This document shows positions 54,850 through 63,502 of a stretch of DNA of 64,000 nt, in pieces. The stretch lies in NCBI GenBank assembly GCA_963965975.1, contig OZ014412.1, positions 13,406,849 to 13,470,848 of the forward strand, given 5' to 3'. The notes under the pieces are model-generated. The model had not been told where the DNA came from, did no database searches, and worked only from the letters and a program-made list of their open reading frames with translations. This DNA is from Xestospongia bergquistia. Lineage: Eukaryota > Porifera > Demospongiae > Haplosclerida > Petrosiidae. Within the stretch, counting starts at the first letter, position 1. The number at the start of each line of letters is the position of its first letter. The position numbers and the translations under genes are program-made.

Positions 54850-55093
54850 TTTCCAAGAGATTAACTCTCACATAATCAACTCTATTTTTCATCAATCCAA
54901 TGAGACCAACTCCATTTGAACAATTATTAAAATAGCGTCATGCTCTCTTAACGATTATCACACTTAGCTCCTACTTTGAGTAATTAGCTTTAGCATATCA
55001 AAATCTGGTCATACCTTTATAAGTATAAAAGCTCTCCATTACAAGCACAGTTACATTTGCCATTATAAGTTAGTATGGCCGAAACACATAGAG

Positions 55094-55342
55094 ATGGAAA
55101 AAACTCTTCATTATAAAGGCTACATTTATACAAAGATAAGGGATGGCTTGCAAGGAAATACTTTCAGGAGATGCAATAAATATAAGAGTGGCTGCAGTGG
55201 TAGAGCTACTTCAGAAGAGTCAAATGTTGTAGTTAGACAAGAGCACAACCATCCTCCATACCTGCATGGCTGCTACCAAGAAAGATTAGGTTGTGTCTCA
55301 GATGAGGAAAAGGGCAAGAGAGGAAACAGTCTCAATTCATAG
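55094..55342 (+). CDS. FLYWCH-type zinc finger ORF
   Basis: ATG to TAG, 82 codons. 'LHYKGYIYTKIRDGLQGNTF', 'RRCNKYKSGCSGRAT' and 'QEHNHPPYLHG' fit the FLYWCH pattern (GY.Y...., W/FRC....C.GRA, HNHPP), with Cys-Cys-His-His zinc ligands. In many animals FLYWCH is the N-terminal DNA-binding part of Mutator-like transposases, but no catalytic core follows within the next kilobase. Either an orphan transposon remnant or a first exon. Confidence 0.65.
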   Translation: MEKTLHYKGYIYTKIRDGLQGNTFRRCNKYKSGCSGRATSEESNVVVRQEHNHPPYLHGCYQERLGCVSDEEKGKRGNSLNS

Positions 55343-58113: not shown

Positions 58114-58875
58114 TATGGAGTCAGAAAGCAAAGAGTCTCAGCCCGCCAAAAAAACAACCCACAAATATTGGGAATGGAGGATCCGTGAAACATAATTATA
58201 TATATACAATAGCTAGTGATAGTGACTTTTGTCTTACTCACAACACTTTCTGTAGACACTGTAAGATTGAAATAAGAACTTCATAGCAGAATAATGGATG
58301 ACTTGGACTAACTATTACTCTAATATCTATTGAACGTTTATTTTCTTTTTTTGTTTGAGTCTCATTACAAAGTGTCAGAGAAAGATGTCCTTATTACTGT
58401 GCCACGTATTTATTGATTAAATTCCTCAGAACTATTTTTCTAAACATTGCAACTTATTATTATGTGAAGTCAATGTCTTAATTAAAACTGAACTTGGAAA
58501 TCAGTTAAATTTCAGAATTTGGGCAATAATTTCTCGTGCTTATGTAGTAGAGTAAATTACACAAGAACGGACATATCACTTTCGGCCACATCTAGCAGGA
58601 TAAACTACCAAGAGAATTGGCATTTCTAAAATACTGAAATGAATTTCGCTGTTATCAAAACACATTTAAGGAATTATAAAAGATTCAGAAAGCTCCTCTG
58701 AGCATAGACAGTCTTTTCAAAAAAAAATCGGAAGCATGGGTGCGCGGACAAGTATCATGTAAATTCATCCAGTTCCTCAAACTCCTTGAAGAACAAAGCT
58801 GAGCAAGAGAACTATGGTCGTTGCTATCAAGTACTGACTGAGCTACAACAGTATACTCAAAGTTCTACTTTCTGT
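58114..58875 (+). CDS. Plus-strand coding-like fragments, possible BED-finger start
   Basis: ATG 58114 opens 'MESESKESQPAKKTTHKYWE' 'WRIRET' stop. An exon after TACAATAG (58207) reads 'SDSDFCLTHNTFCRHCKIEI'. A later open piece (58740-58850) reads 'ADKYHVNSSSSSNSLKNKAE', 'GRCYQVLTELQQ'. The CxxC could be the first half of a BED-type finger, but the His half is missing. Divergently arranged with the minus-strand pieces ending at 58076, so 58077-58113 might be a bidirectional promoter. Weak. Confidence 0.25.
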
Positions 58876-59467: not shown

Positions 59468-59643
59468 TCAAGAGTTTGGTTCATCTAGTTTCGATACATT
59501 ATCACATAGAGAACAATACCAAGTCCCTCTTGGTTTTCTCTTAAGATTAGCACATTCAAAATGCCACCAGCCAATTGAGCAATTTGCATTGTCACAATAA
59601 ATCATTCTGTCGAACTCCTCCTGCCTGCAAATGCAGTACTTTT
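59468..59643 (-). CDS. PHD-finger terminal exon
   Basis: Acceptor ATTTAATGTAG, then an intact 58-codon frame: 'KYCICRQEEFDRMIYCDNAN', 'CSIGWWHFECANLKRKPRGT', 'WYCSLCDNVS' to TGA. Cys-x-Cys, Cys-x4-Cys (CDNANC), His-x2-Cys and Cys-x2-Cys make a complete Cys4-His-Cys3 PHD, with the ING-like 'W.C..C' end. This exon has no defects, unlike the transposase exon. Confidence 0.85.
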
Positions 59644-59690
59644 CTACATTAAATATTATTGCAAGTGAGCAATATATGTGTTATAAATAC

Positions 59691-60878
59691 CTATTGGAGA
59701 CTAAACAATGGTTGTCTTTTGAAATTCAGAACTTGTCTGAAACTAAAAATGTGTCAGAGACTGAGTACTAGGGGCTAGATTATCATAACTATAAATATTA
59801 TAAAAGATAACAGATAAACTGACCTATTGAAGACTTGACAGAGGTTGCCTTTTGAGACTGAGAAAGTTTCCGAGATTGAGTGCCAGAAGGCTATATTATT
59901 ATAACAGTGAATAATATAAAAGAAATAGACAAACTGACCTATAGGAGATTTGACAGTGGTTGTCTTTTGAGACCGAGAATGTGTCTGAGATTGAGTACTA
60001 GAGGATAGATTATAATAACAATAAATAATATAGAAGATAACAGACAAACTGACCTATAGGAGACTTGACATTAGTTGCCTTTTGAGACCCACAACGTGTC
60101 TGTAATATAGTTCTGGAGGCTAAATTATTATACTAATAATAATACAAATAATAACAGACAAACTGACCTTTTGGAGACTTGACAGAGGTTGCCTTTTGAG
60201 ACTGAGAATGTGTCTGAGACTGAGTACCATAGACTAGATTATTATAACAATGAATAATATAAAAGATAACAGACAAACTGACCTATTTGAGACTTGACAG
60301 TGGTTGCCTTTTGAGACTGAGAACATGTCCCTAACCTAGTACTAGAGGCTAGATTATTATCACAATGAATAATAGAAAAGATAACGGACAAACTGACCTA
60401 TAGGAGACTTGACAGTGGTTGTCTTTTGAGACCGAGAACGTGTCTGAGATTGAGTACTAGAGGCTACATTATTATAACAATGAATAACAAAAAAGATAAC
60501 AGACAAACTGACCTATTGGAGACTTGATAGAGGTTGCCTTTTGAGACCGAGAATGTGTCCGAGATTGAGTACTAGAGGCTAGATTATTATAACAATGAAT
60601 AATATAAAAGATAACAGACAAACTGACCTATTTGAGACTTGACAGTTGTTGCCTTTTGAGACTGAGAACGTGTCTGAGATTGAGTACTAGAGGCTACATT
60701 ATTATAACAATGAATAACAAAAAAGATAACAAACAAACTGACCTATTGGAGACTTGATAGAGGTTGCCTTTTGCGACCAAGAACGTGTCCGAGATTGAGT
60801 ACTAGAGGCTAGATTATTATACCAATGGATAATATAGAGGGTAACAGACAAACTAACCTATTAGAGACTTGGAGATAC
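59691..60878 (-). repeat. 115-bp tandem array, each unit one 66-nt exon plus one 49-nt intron
   Basis: Unit exon starts (low coordinate) are 59824, 59939, 60054, 60168, 60283, 60398, 60513, 60628, 60743 and 60858: spacing 115 or 114 throughout. Each exon is 66 nt (67 in the first, frameshifted one; 21 in the last, diverged one), flanked by ATCTAG-type acceptors and GTCAGT donors. A typical unit encodes 'ASSTQSRTHSRSQKA' then 'TSIKSPI'. Seven units (60054 to 60743) are open with good splice sites. Unit 59939 has its acceptor AG changed to AT. Unit 59691, 133 bp from its neighbour, has an 18-bp insertion and a stop. Confidence 0.9.
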
Positions 60879-61067
60879 CTGCAGCACCTGATGTGGTATA
60901 TAAACTAATTCAATAAATTAACACTATACCTTCATTTAAACTGTTCTCTAGTTCTTCAGGCATTGTAAACAATGAGCAACCTATAACCACAGTATAATAT
61001 AACAGTACCATCATTGATACTGGTTGAAAAGGTGCTAGACTTAAGATGAAATTATGCAAATACCTAC

Positions 61068-61148
61068 CTTTAGTGGGATCGTTTGATGTAGATTGAGAAC
61101 TGCTAATAGGGGCTGAACCAGTACAGGACTTTTTAGAGCAAGAACTTT
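61068..61148 (-). CDS. Serine-rich 81-nt exon
   Basis: Phase 1-1, 27 codons, 'SSCSKKSCTGSAPISSSQST', 'SNDPTK'; acceptor ATTGTTATAG, donor GTAGGT. The other two frames either stop in the next exon or do not connect, which supports this phase. The neighbouring exon 60980-60930 (51 nt, 'CSLFTMPEELENSLNE') is also phase 1-1. Confidence 0.65.
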
Positions 61149-61272
61149 CTATAACAATATTGAGGAATCAAAATTTGGGTATGTCATTCTCACTTTTTTT
61201 TAACTGAGCTATCCTAGCTTGATCTAATCAAAGAAAGAATGTGTAAGTTGCACTATCTATGTATATACTTAC

Positions 61273-63189
61273 TTCTTTTTTCTTTTTTTCTTCCTTCCTT
61301 CTCATTTCTTCTAATTTCCTTTTCTCTTTTTCTTCAATTGCCATATGATTCTCTGCACTTGTTAAGACTTTTCCAGACTTCTTTTGTGGTATAACTGGAA
61401 GCTTACAAAAGGGTAATGATCTTTCTTCTTCTAAAATCTTTGAAAAAATGGATGATTTTTTAAGAACTGCAGATTGCAAAGGTTGTTCAGGAGGATGACA
61501 GACAAAAGGATATGTATTACTTTCAGCACTTGCAGTGGAAGGACAACTTTGAAAACAAGGATCAAATGCTGGCACAAAAAATGGAAAATATGGAAGAGTG
61601 TCTTGTGGGTAATATGGGTATCTAGTATCTGGTGGGTAATGTGGGTATTGATAAAACATACGAGTGTTGGCATCATTAGCAACTGTGTCATTGTGGGAGA
61701 ATTGGGAACTCAAATCAAGCTCTTGATCAACAAATCCACTACCATCATTACTTGATTGATGCTTTTTTTCCATTGGTTATAACGATCATCAGAAGTAATA
61801 TCATAACCTTCTTGAAACCTTTTTGAAATCTTGATTCTTCCTCTTCTGTGAATACAGCTTCTTGAGTAATGGGAGGCCTGTATTGTCGTGTAGCTAGTGG
61901 TATAAATTTCAGTCTTGTGCGCTGTGCAAGTGTGCTTGTGGCATCTTTTCTTGATGGAACAATAGCATCCCTGTTCAAGGGGTAGATTCCTGTATATTTG
62001 AATCCAGCTTGAATACTTTTCATTGTCATTGCACATGCCCATGCCTCACTAAATAGTTTTGAAAAGGTGAATCTTGTGACTACCTTGCCCGGATTATCCA
62101 CTAAAAACTTTCGGCATACCTGCCTCCATGAAGACTTTAATGGTCCAAATGGACCTTTATCCAGAGGCTGGGTTTCATGTGATGAATGTGGGAGTAGACA
62201 AAAAATGATCACTTTCTCTTCTGCTGCCTTATTAATTACTGAAGGATTATAGTGTGAAGAATGACCATCGAGTAGGAGTAGAATTGGTCATACAGTTGGG
62301 GCATGAGGCAAAAAATGATGGACAAACCATAAATCAAACGGTTCACTATTGATCCACCCGGATTCTGAGAGACCATACATAGTCCCGGGGACTTCTCCAT
62401 CAACCATTGCTAGTTTCAGACACTTTAGGTCAAATATTACAAAGGGTGGCATGCAATATCCAGCAGCATTACATGATGCAAGAACTGTAATCTGTGTTTT
62501 ATTTCCAGTTGTTATTGCTCTTGGATGTTTGACACCTTTAGCAGTCACACCCTTTGAAGGTTTTGGATCTAGTGGCATTCCAGTTTCATCACAGTTGAAC
62601 AATTGGGTGGGCTTTGAAACAAGGTCATTTTCCTGAATGGTTTGCTCTAAAATATCGAAATAATTACTCAAGACGTCTGGGGTGCAGGCTGAAGCACAAT
62701 TGTTAGCAATTTGCTCAGTAATTCGGAGAGAAAGTTCTGAATGTCGTTTCCTGAATCCCTCCCACCAACCGCTAGAAACTGTCACATTCCTTCTTTTTCT
62801 ATCAACTGTAGCTTGTACTATCGATATCACTTCCTTCCTTGTACGTGGAAATCCTATTTTTGCAGTTTCCAATAAAAATGTTACCAGCTCTTCTTCTTCT
62901 TCTTCATCTGTTAGATACTTTTGACCACTCTTGCTACCACTTAAAACTTTTCCCGAAACATGATCTTGAATAGTAGATTTAGGGATTTGATACTCTTCTG
63001 CTGCCTGTCTCAAAGACAATCCACTCTCAACTGCTTGACATGCCCGTTCTAAGTTTTCAGAAGTTCAAGTTTTATATTTTAGAGGTCGAGCAGAGCAAGA
63101 TTGTGGAATATCATGTGTGAACTTGGATGAATAGAGTACACGCCCACTAAGAGGAAGTGATTTAGTTGCCATTTGATTGAACACAAAGA
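61273..63189 (-). pseudogene. pogo/Tigger-like DDE transposase exon
   Basis: Acceptor TTATCTGTAG at 63190; ATG 63172. N-terminal HTH: 'SENLERACQAVESGLSLRQA', 'AEEYQIPKSTIQDHVSGKV'; then CENP-B-type 'SSGWWEGFRKRHSELSLR'. Catalytic D,D,D: 'FNCDETGMPLDPKP' (about 62600), 'ILLLLDGHSSHY' (about 62270) and 'HETQPLDKGPFGPLK' (about 62155). C-terminal 'AGFKYTGIYPLNRDAI', a Tyr/Pro-rich segment and 'KVLTSAENHM' plus a Lys/Glu coiled tail. Defects: TGA at codon 36 (63067-63065, where Trp is expected), TGA at codon 295 (62290-62288), an 11-bp tandem duplication (about 61815) and a one-base loss in an A7 run (about 61768). Only these few lesions: a recently disabled copy. Confidence 0.85.
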
Positions 63190-63236
63190 CTACAGATAAG
63201 TATGTCAATTATAGATGAATAACATACACAACCTAC

Positions 63237-63403
63237 CTATCAGAGATTTGTTACTAGCTGTCTTGAGATATTGAGAATGTGTTTGAAAGAGAGTACTTGA
63301 GTTAAAGTGAGACACTAGGTGCATAATAACATCAAAGGAAAATACAAAAGGAAACTGACCTATTAGAGACTTAATACCTTTTCAGATAGAGAATGTGTTT
63401 GAG
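63237..63403 (-). repeat. Two decayed array units upstream of the transposase exon
   Basis: 63237-63301 and 63360-63403 align with the 66-nt exon of the 115-bp units ('CTATTAGAGACTT', 'GAGAATGTGTTTGA', 'GAGTACT') and keep donor GTAGGT or GTCAGT. The low ends are 123 bp apart. Both are eroded: the first has stops in phase 1, the second lacks its acceptor side. They lie on the other side of the transposase from the main array. Confidence 0.7.
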
Positions 63404-63457
63404 TTATTATAGCGATAATGTCGGTATATGCAGGATAAGTAACACTATAGAATTTAC

Positions 63458-63502
63458 CTCTATATGTACTTGGTTGCCCAGATCAAACATTTGAAGACTG
63501 AT
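63458..63502 (-). CDS. Upstream serine-rich 45-nt exon
   Basis: Acceptor ATGTTTAG, donor GTAAAT, phase 1-1, 15 codons: 'QSSNV' TGA 'SGQPSTYR'. Same phase and composition as the downstream exons. The TGA would end translation here, so initiation at ATG 63172 is more likely in the present copy. Confidence 0.45.

Follow-up and report, generated by a model that had tools for sequence, protein, structure and literature searches.

A 64,000-nucleotide stretch of the genome of the sponge Xestospongia bergquistia (the window; assembly GCA_963965975.1, contig OZ014412.1, here C2:13406849-13470848) carries a dead copy of a pogo-like transposon, whose transposase gene is built of phase-1 modules in the order of a large exon with helix-turn-helix (HTH) and DDE domains, a tandem array of short linker exons, and a terminal exon with an ING-type PHD finger. 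The family to which this copy belongs is termed F1, and seven related families (F2 to F8) possess PHD-linked arrays whose unit sequences differ, as found in the surveyed genome of 146 Mb in 21 contigs. The number of array units changes between copies, and closely related transposases carry dissimilar PHD fingers. It is proposed with moderate confidence that the phase-1 exon array encodes a linker which is resized by unequal exchange, keeps the reading frame at every size, and tethers the transposase to a histone reader.

Structure of the gene in the window

Re-reading of the window sequence gave 16 exons on the minus strand (63189-59468) with phase 1 at every junction (Table 1). A model's reading of the window by itself (hereafter the original prediction) had listed at least fifteen such exons, including a main exon of 1917 nt, which was recovered, and a 45-nt exon, which was not found and in whose place a 30-nt exon fits. 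Tandem Repeats Finder (TRF) detected the array at 59751-60871 with a period of 115, 9.8 copies and 84% matches, and no array with a period of at least 40 in window positions 1-58000. The transposase frame of this copy is interrupted by two stops (63067 and 62290) and, further on, by a frameshift, and the array has flaws of its own, as the exon at 60004 lacks its AG and the exon at 59889 is one base long counted from its AG. The combination of gene, array and PHD finger is nevertheless beyond chance, because the same set recurs in dispersed F1 copies and in the related families, and the modular phase-1 gene first suggested for this locus is thereby borne out.

Table 1. Features of the F1 copy in the window (positions are those of the window unless a contig is given), with the quasi-regular stretches found elsewhere in the genome.
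Feature	Position	Strand	Remarks
Terminal inverted repeat, 3' end of gene	58548..58589	+	Begins TA, then GAGTAAATTACACAAGAACGGACA; boundary common to copies and whole-genome pattern search
Terminal exon: ING-type PHD finger and stop codon	59468..59643	-	Alignment, structure matches
Last linker exon, 84 nt	59691..59774	-	Two stops in the window copy
Array: nine 66-nt exon positions, 115-bp register, introns of about 49 nt	59824..60808	-
21-nt linker exon	60858..60878	-	Similar to the 3' end of the array exon
51-nt linker exon	60930..60980	-
81-nt linker exon	61068..61148	-
30-nt linker exon	61194..61223	-	Donor GTGAGA
Main transposase exon, 1917 nt	61273..63189	-	Psq-type HTH, Tc5-type HTH, DDE_1
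Two diverged partial linker units 5' of the main exon	63218..63403	-	Matches 63403-63329 and 63301-63218
Quasi-regular DDE_1/PHD stretches	C5:4.57-5.19, C6:3.37-4.23, C7:4.74-5.18, C13:3.30-4.15, C15:2.44-3.10, C10:2.44-2.68 Mb

Mobile copies of family F1

In a domain profile search the main exon matched HTH_psq (E 5e-10) and, in its second open piece, DDE_1 (E 7e-10), while HTH_Tnp_Tc5 (E 3e-4) fell narrowly short of the cut-off. By eye, an open copy contains CDETG, LLDGHSSH and PLDKG at the places expected for what we take to be the DDxD triad. Most copies end in TA followed by GAGTAAATT, so that the terminal inverted repeats (TIRs) are TA-flanked, which together with the HTH_psq and DDE_1 matches supports the pogo/Tigger-like identity assigned at the outset. 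The window copy measures 7075 bp, and its TIR partner was located by genome-wide pattern search at C2:13472445-13472470, beyond the window.

The same search identified 10 F1 TIR pairs spanning 6.7 to 11.6 kb, and a PHD match lies inside the TIRs in 10/10, where the original prediction had named paralogues lacking the array, with a transposase ending without a PHD finger, as the contrary outcome. Genome-wide, 64 places match the PHD exon, most with high identity to F1 and some to other genes; among 24 F1 copies in which it was aligned, 19 are free of indels and 19 keep the AG on its 5' side.

Pogo-type transposases are often domesticated, as mentioned in the original prediction and described in the survey of that group (PMC7386202, the part available), but it is hardly credible that the window locus is a host gene which arose by domestication and captured a PHD finger. 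The 10 F1 and 13 F4 copies with paired TIRs are dispersed over contigs and therefore mobile elements, which rules out a single domesticated gene; the copies also decay near-neutrally, and at the window locus the TIRs and the dead reading frame refute domestication directly.

Two further observations concern F1. Three near-identical copies (L011-L013) lie about 40 kb apart at C2:15.998, 16.038 and 16.078 Mb, near the contig end. Upstream of the main exon, in the region C2:13471600-13471650 (L039), an open piece, MSDSELESMLTASIAAGPGRPRKS, lies where the F1 gene may have its first exon and resembles an AT-hook.

Array length differs between copies

The 26 fetched F1 copies contain 304 full array units, ranging from 4 to 48 per copy, although these copies are not all independent and include near-duplicates (three at C2:16.0 Mb, two at C1:9.7-9.8 and two at C4:3.0-3.2). 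The biggest arrays, at C1:17.6 Mb (48 units) and C9:5.4 Mb (44 units), both belong to decayed copies.

Family F4, a younger one, has 13 TIR-paired copies that range in length from 4858 to 5484 bp; four measure exactly 5389 bp, and a PHD match is present in 13/13. Its array units are 103 and 109 bp long, and the distance from DDE_1 to PHD in 14 copies was 2543 (four copies), 2646 (one), 2440 (two), 2434 (one) and 2325 (one), so that 9/14 copies fit exact steps of +103, -103, -109 or -218 relative to 2543; the remaining five distances (2009, 2416, 2426, 2430 and 2542) fit no exact unit step. The comparison of linker-exon number between copies, proposed as a check of the original prediction, thus revealed variation in both families. 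One F4 copy is apparently nested in another in opposite orientation at C1:3806608-3817129, where the outer length minus the inner one is 5260 bp.

Seven further families

Families F2 to F8 were reached through PHD-like fingers similar to the F1 finger or to each other, and through the DDE_1 match list. In F2 (L045-L047) the exon is 54 nt and the intron 41-42 nt; 6/6 parsed exons have this length, one of them with a stop, and TRF, applied to two of the loci, counted 3.7 and 5.7 copies of the repeat. The F2 PHD exon (L045:2838-2957, also L046 and L047) contains an in-frame 30-bp repeat, GLDDTEIDNV, whose number varies by copy (TRF 4.0 in L045). In F3 (L049-L052) exons of 57 or 81 nt alternate with introns of 43 or 45 nt, and all 61 parsed exon rows (11, 18, 14 and 18 per locus) are open and multiples of three, one 159-nt row comprising two units with a changed donor. 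The 45-nt introns of F3 are open in frame, so that retention adds residues without a stop, and the 43-nt introns would cause a frameshift. The length of the F3 repeat, 226 bp, cannot be divided by three, and an unspliced array is therefore not one frame; this and the F1 unit of 115 bp rule out a single in-frame tandem repeat without splicing.

In F4 (L053) there are six exons of 54 nt and four of 60 nt, with introns of 49 nt in 11/11. The 248-bp repeat of F5 (L054-L057) holds two exons, the first being 87, 90 or 99 nt in 14/14 rows and the second 51 nt, except that three rows read 24 nt through an alternative in the search pattern and one row had none. The F6 exon (L058, L060 and L061) is 57 nt in 17/19 parsed exons, with one of 60 and one of 56. 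In family F7 (L062) a single row is a clean 72 nt, three merged rows are compatible with it, and the introns are 54 nt, while F8 (L064) has five 60-nt rows, merged rows fitting 60 and 69 nt, introns of 49-51 nt and about 37 array copies. An in-frame 237-bp duplication (TRF 1.9 copies) occurs within the main exon of the same F8 locus at 1203-1651. The fingers of F2 to F6 have the Pfam PHD model as top match, mostly under the cut-off and in F5 over it, and those of F7 and F8 were assigned through alignment only.

Six loci (L053-L058) were drawn from the DDE_1 match list before a PHD finger or array was known there, and 6/6 had both; they represent three families, with four loci being F5, and the later loci were picked for a nearby PHD and are no test. 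Among 150 DDE_1 places, taken from 153 matches listed, at least 95 have a same-strand PHD match within 6 kb downstream and 2/150 have one upstream, the PHD set being 185 matches and the value of 95 a lower bound because L058 was scored without its PHD. TRF found no array with a period of at least 40 in five DDE_1 loci that lack a linked PHD (L001-L005, with 1.5 kb of flank on each side).

The PHD finger

The best matches of the F1 PHD exon are 20 structures of the ING/Yng/Pho23 type (E 5e-16 to 2.5e-10), the next best reaching 7e-4, in agreement with the ING-like finger named in the original prediction, although the general PHD model of Pfam scored short of its cut-off. The Cys4-His-Cys3 ligands and aligned Y, M, D and W residues, the latter presumably forming the H3K4me3 cage, are present by eye.

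The best named protein relatives come from two sponges, Amphimedon queenslandica and Dysidea avara, and were compared as predicted proteins known from protein sequence alone. The F1 finger shares 59% identity with the Dysidea finger and 48% with the Amphimedon one, while the transposases of these two species share 44% and 48%, respectively, with that of F1. Within the Xestospongia genome, the PHD finger has been exchanged as a module between transposon lineages, because the transposases of F1 and F4 are 70% identical (clade support 1.000) but their fingers only 23%. The phase-1 joints permit such an exchange. Another PHD finger (L048, C15:2086000-2087400; also C15:2108479 and 2118926) shares about 42% identity with the F1 finger (Pfam PHD E 5e-6), and lies beside an open piece which we take to be a YqaJ-type nuclease.

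Coding status of the array

The array units are probably spliced into mRNA, as judged from their phases, lengths and recurrence. All eight families show phase-1 symmetry of the units, and the exon lengths differ between units by multiples of three throughout (66/84, 57/81, 54/60, 87/90/99, 57/60 and 60/69), with intron lengths of 43/45, 41/42, 48/49, 46-49 and 49-51. A single array is weak evidence alone, because dinucleotide shuffles of one unit can often be cut likewise into an open, frame-neutral exon and intron (F1 21%, F2 9%, F3 41%, F4 36% and F6 26%; product about 7e-4, before requiring phase 1).

Besides this shuffle rate of 9-41%, several observations weigh against a spliced linker that serves as a tether. 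Purifying selection on linker codons was not found in the pooled counts of 107 nonsynonymous (N) and 26 synonymous (S) changes and 5 stops; N:S is 1.7 times expectation in the pool and 27 to 1 in F3 alone, with no depletion of stops. As a speculation, the excess of nonsynonymous change would fit a linker that is free to diversify. The F1 splice dinucleotides are not better kept than their neighbours (GT 287/304 and AG 286/304 versus 283 and 285/304), 30/260 measured exons in decayed F1 copies are not multiples of three, and two 73-nt rows in F7 and the 56-nt exon in F6 would break the frame. The main exon and the PHD exon are themselves near neutral when F1 copies are compared, their N/S being about 0.92 times the expected value, and constraint is therefore visible only between families. 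One F5-like copy (L063) has a PHD finger and no array detectable by TRF. Finally, F1 occupies the middle half of the contig at 24/31 places (the position list from which four of the first 35 PHD matches were left out) and F4 at 4/15; this mid-contig bias of F1 is not predicted by targeting to histone H3 trimethylated at lysine 4 (H3K4me3) alone, although retention could explain it, and copy positions do not settle chromatin targeting.

Several of these points would suit an array that is an intronic minisatellite, spliced out whole between the main and PHD exons, whose phase-1 neighbours keep the frame, and without protein function. Linker codons without purifying selection, splice dinucleotides kept no better than their neighbours, and the frequent chance segmentation of a single unit are all in its favour, and minisatellites are described after the transposase open reading frames (ORFs) of Rehavkus and Phantom in the available part of PMC6446971. 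This explanation is unlikely, however, as it does not account for the same-phase, frame-neutral segmentation in eight families, with the above joint chance for the five tested, or for the fact that in better-kept arrays variants in the exon part are multiples of three whereas those in the intron part mostly are not. Moreover, the predicted Amphimedon protein LOC109582507 isoform X4 (P0036) contains, between Psq and DDE_1 on one side and a C-terminal ING-type PHD on the other, a similarly repetitive Ser/Thr/Lys/Gly linker.

The array might instead be a generator of isoforms, in which skipping of units gives transposases of many lengths, for example short active and long inhibitory ones. This is possible but rather doubtful: all units are symmetric and interchangeable, the name isoform X4 implies that more than one Amphimedon isoform is annotated, and retention of the 45-nt introns of F3 is tolerable, but searches by linker and PHD for further Amphimedon isoforms found only LOC109582507 isoform X4, and unit number already differs at the DNA level, a change that does not depend on regulated splicing.

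A role of the array as DNA or RNA, for instance as a substrate for recombination, as a binding site of the transposase or as a means of evading silencing, with coding being incidental, is improbable. The high homogeneity within arrays (e.g. 91-96% TRF matches) and the length of the runs, which reach 48 units in F1 and about 37 in F8, agree with it, but it leaves unexplained both the confinement of multiple-of-three variants to the exon part and the phase shared with the PHD exon.

Proposed mechanism and significance

In the proposed tether mechanism, the gene would encode in order an HTH DNA-binding part, the DDE core, a linker of short phase-1 exons and, at the C-terminus, a PHD finger; one of the linker exons has been tandemly amplified together with its intron. 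Unequal exchange would then add or remove whole units of exon and intron without a frameshift, and cells could likewise include or skip units with the frame intact; gain, loss and skipping are frame-safe because each exon consists of whole codons and is phase-symmetric. The product may be a tether rich in Ser, Thr and Arg, disordered and variable in length, that joins the catalytic core to the reader of histone tails. The linker units are 20 to 45% Ser/Thr, as compared with 16% in a transposase core, and are mostly net basic. ING-type fingers read H3K4me3, and the PHD finger would most likely anchor the transposase on chromatin of a particular H3 state, H3K4me3 in the case of an ING-type finger. 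With the core bound to the transposon ends, the reader bound to histone H3 and the linker between them, the length of the tether would set the reach of the transpososome from the anchored nucleosome, and the finger would influence where insertion takes place.

More broadly, it may be put forward tentatively, with slightly less confidence than doubt, that a whole lineage of pogo-like transposons in sponges uses the minisatellite-like expansion of phase-symmetric units of exon and intron as an evolvable control of length, in which arrays are homogenised within each family, tether size changes from copy to copy, and swaps of PHD fingers of different specificity at the common phase-1 joints shift insertion preference. 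If true, repeat instability would be used constructively within a coding gene, and expansions that otherwise break genes would be made frame-neutral by intron phase. The finding links transposase biology with chromatin readers. F4 provides near-identical copies differing mainly in tether length, and the idea that exon shuffling lets a selfish element tune its choice of target becomes testable.

Other sequences

On six contigs, DDE_1 matches that are nearly identical and have a PHD linked to them are found every 110-205 kb or so, as if in very large tandem repeats (Table 1). On the plus strand of the window, the open frame at 54980-55342 encodes a FLYWCH zinc finger (E 8e-7) and is probably the remnant of another transposon.

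Comparison with known systems

Many short phase-symmetric exons encode an extensible or disordered segment in titin (PEVK) and similar genes, which are host structural genes and not mobile elements. Among the sponge relatives, a predicted protein of Dysidea avara (P0105) contains Psq, DDE_1 and a C-terminal ING-type PHD as in F1, but no linker repeat. A predicted protein of 748 aa (P0027) combines Psq and DDE_1 with a PHD-like cysteine pattern that ends the same open frame, without an array.

The pogo/Tigger group (IS630-Tc1-mariner) is characterised by Psq- or Tc5-type HTH, DDE_1 and TA-flanked TIRs, and is recorded from Porifera (PMC7386202, the part available). To this organisation F1 adds the exon array and the PHD finger after the core; the main text of that survey contains neither the word 'PHD' nor the word 'intron'. 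In the RAG1-RAG2/Transib system a PHD finger also belongs to a transposase system, but it resides in a separate protein, RAG2, and no exon array is described in the available part of PMC4411706. The original prediction knew of no such array inside a transposase; this held in the open-access literature searched, mainly titles and abstracts, where no exon array of this kind was found, with the qualification that the minisatellites of Rehavkus and Phantom are already known.

The precedents are these two groups, as described in the available part of PMC6446971. Phantom Mutator-like elements (MULEs) of aphids share the position of a minisatellite after the transposase ORF with the F1 array, but belong to a different superfamily, and no PHD finger is listed for them there. 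In Rehavkus, a relative of MULEs, the transposase contains a PHD finger and a minisatellite precedes the 3' TIR, as in F1 near the corresponding end. Its transposase is of another superfamily, however, and it has a 9-bp target duplication where F1 has TA-flanked ends; the F1 transposase matches DDE_1 and not a MULE model. The Rehavkus minisatellite is not described as exons in that part of the text; if it is also cut into exons, the design would have arisen more than once.

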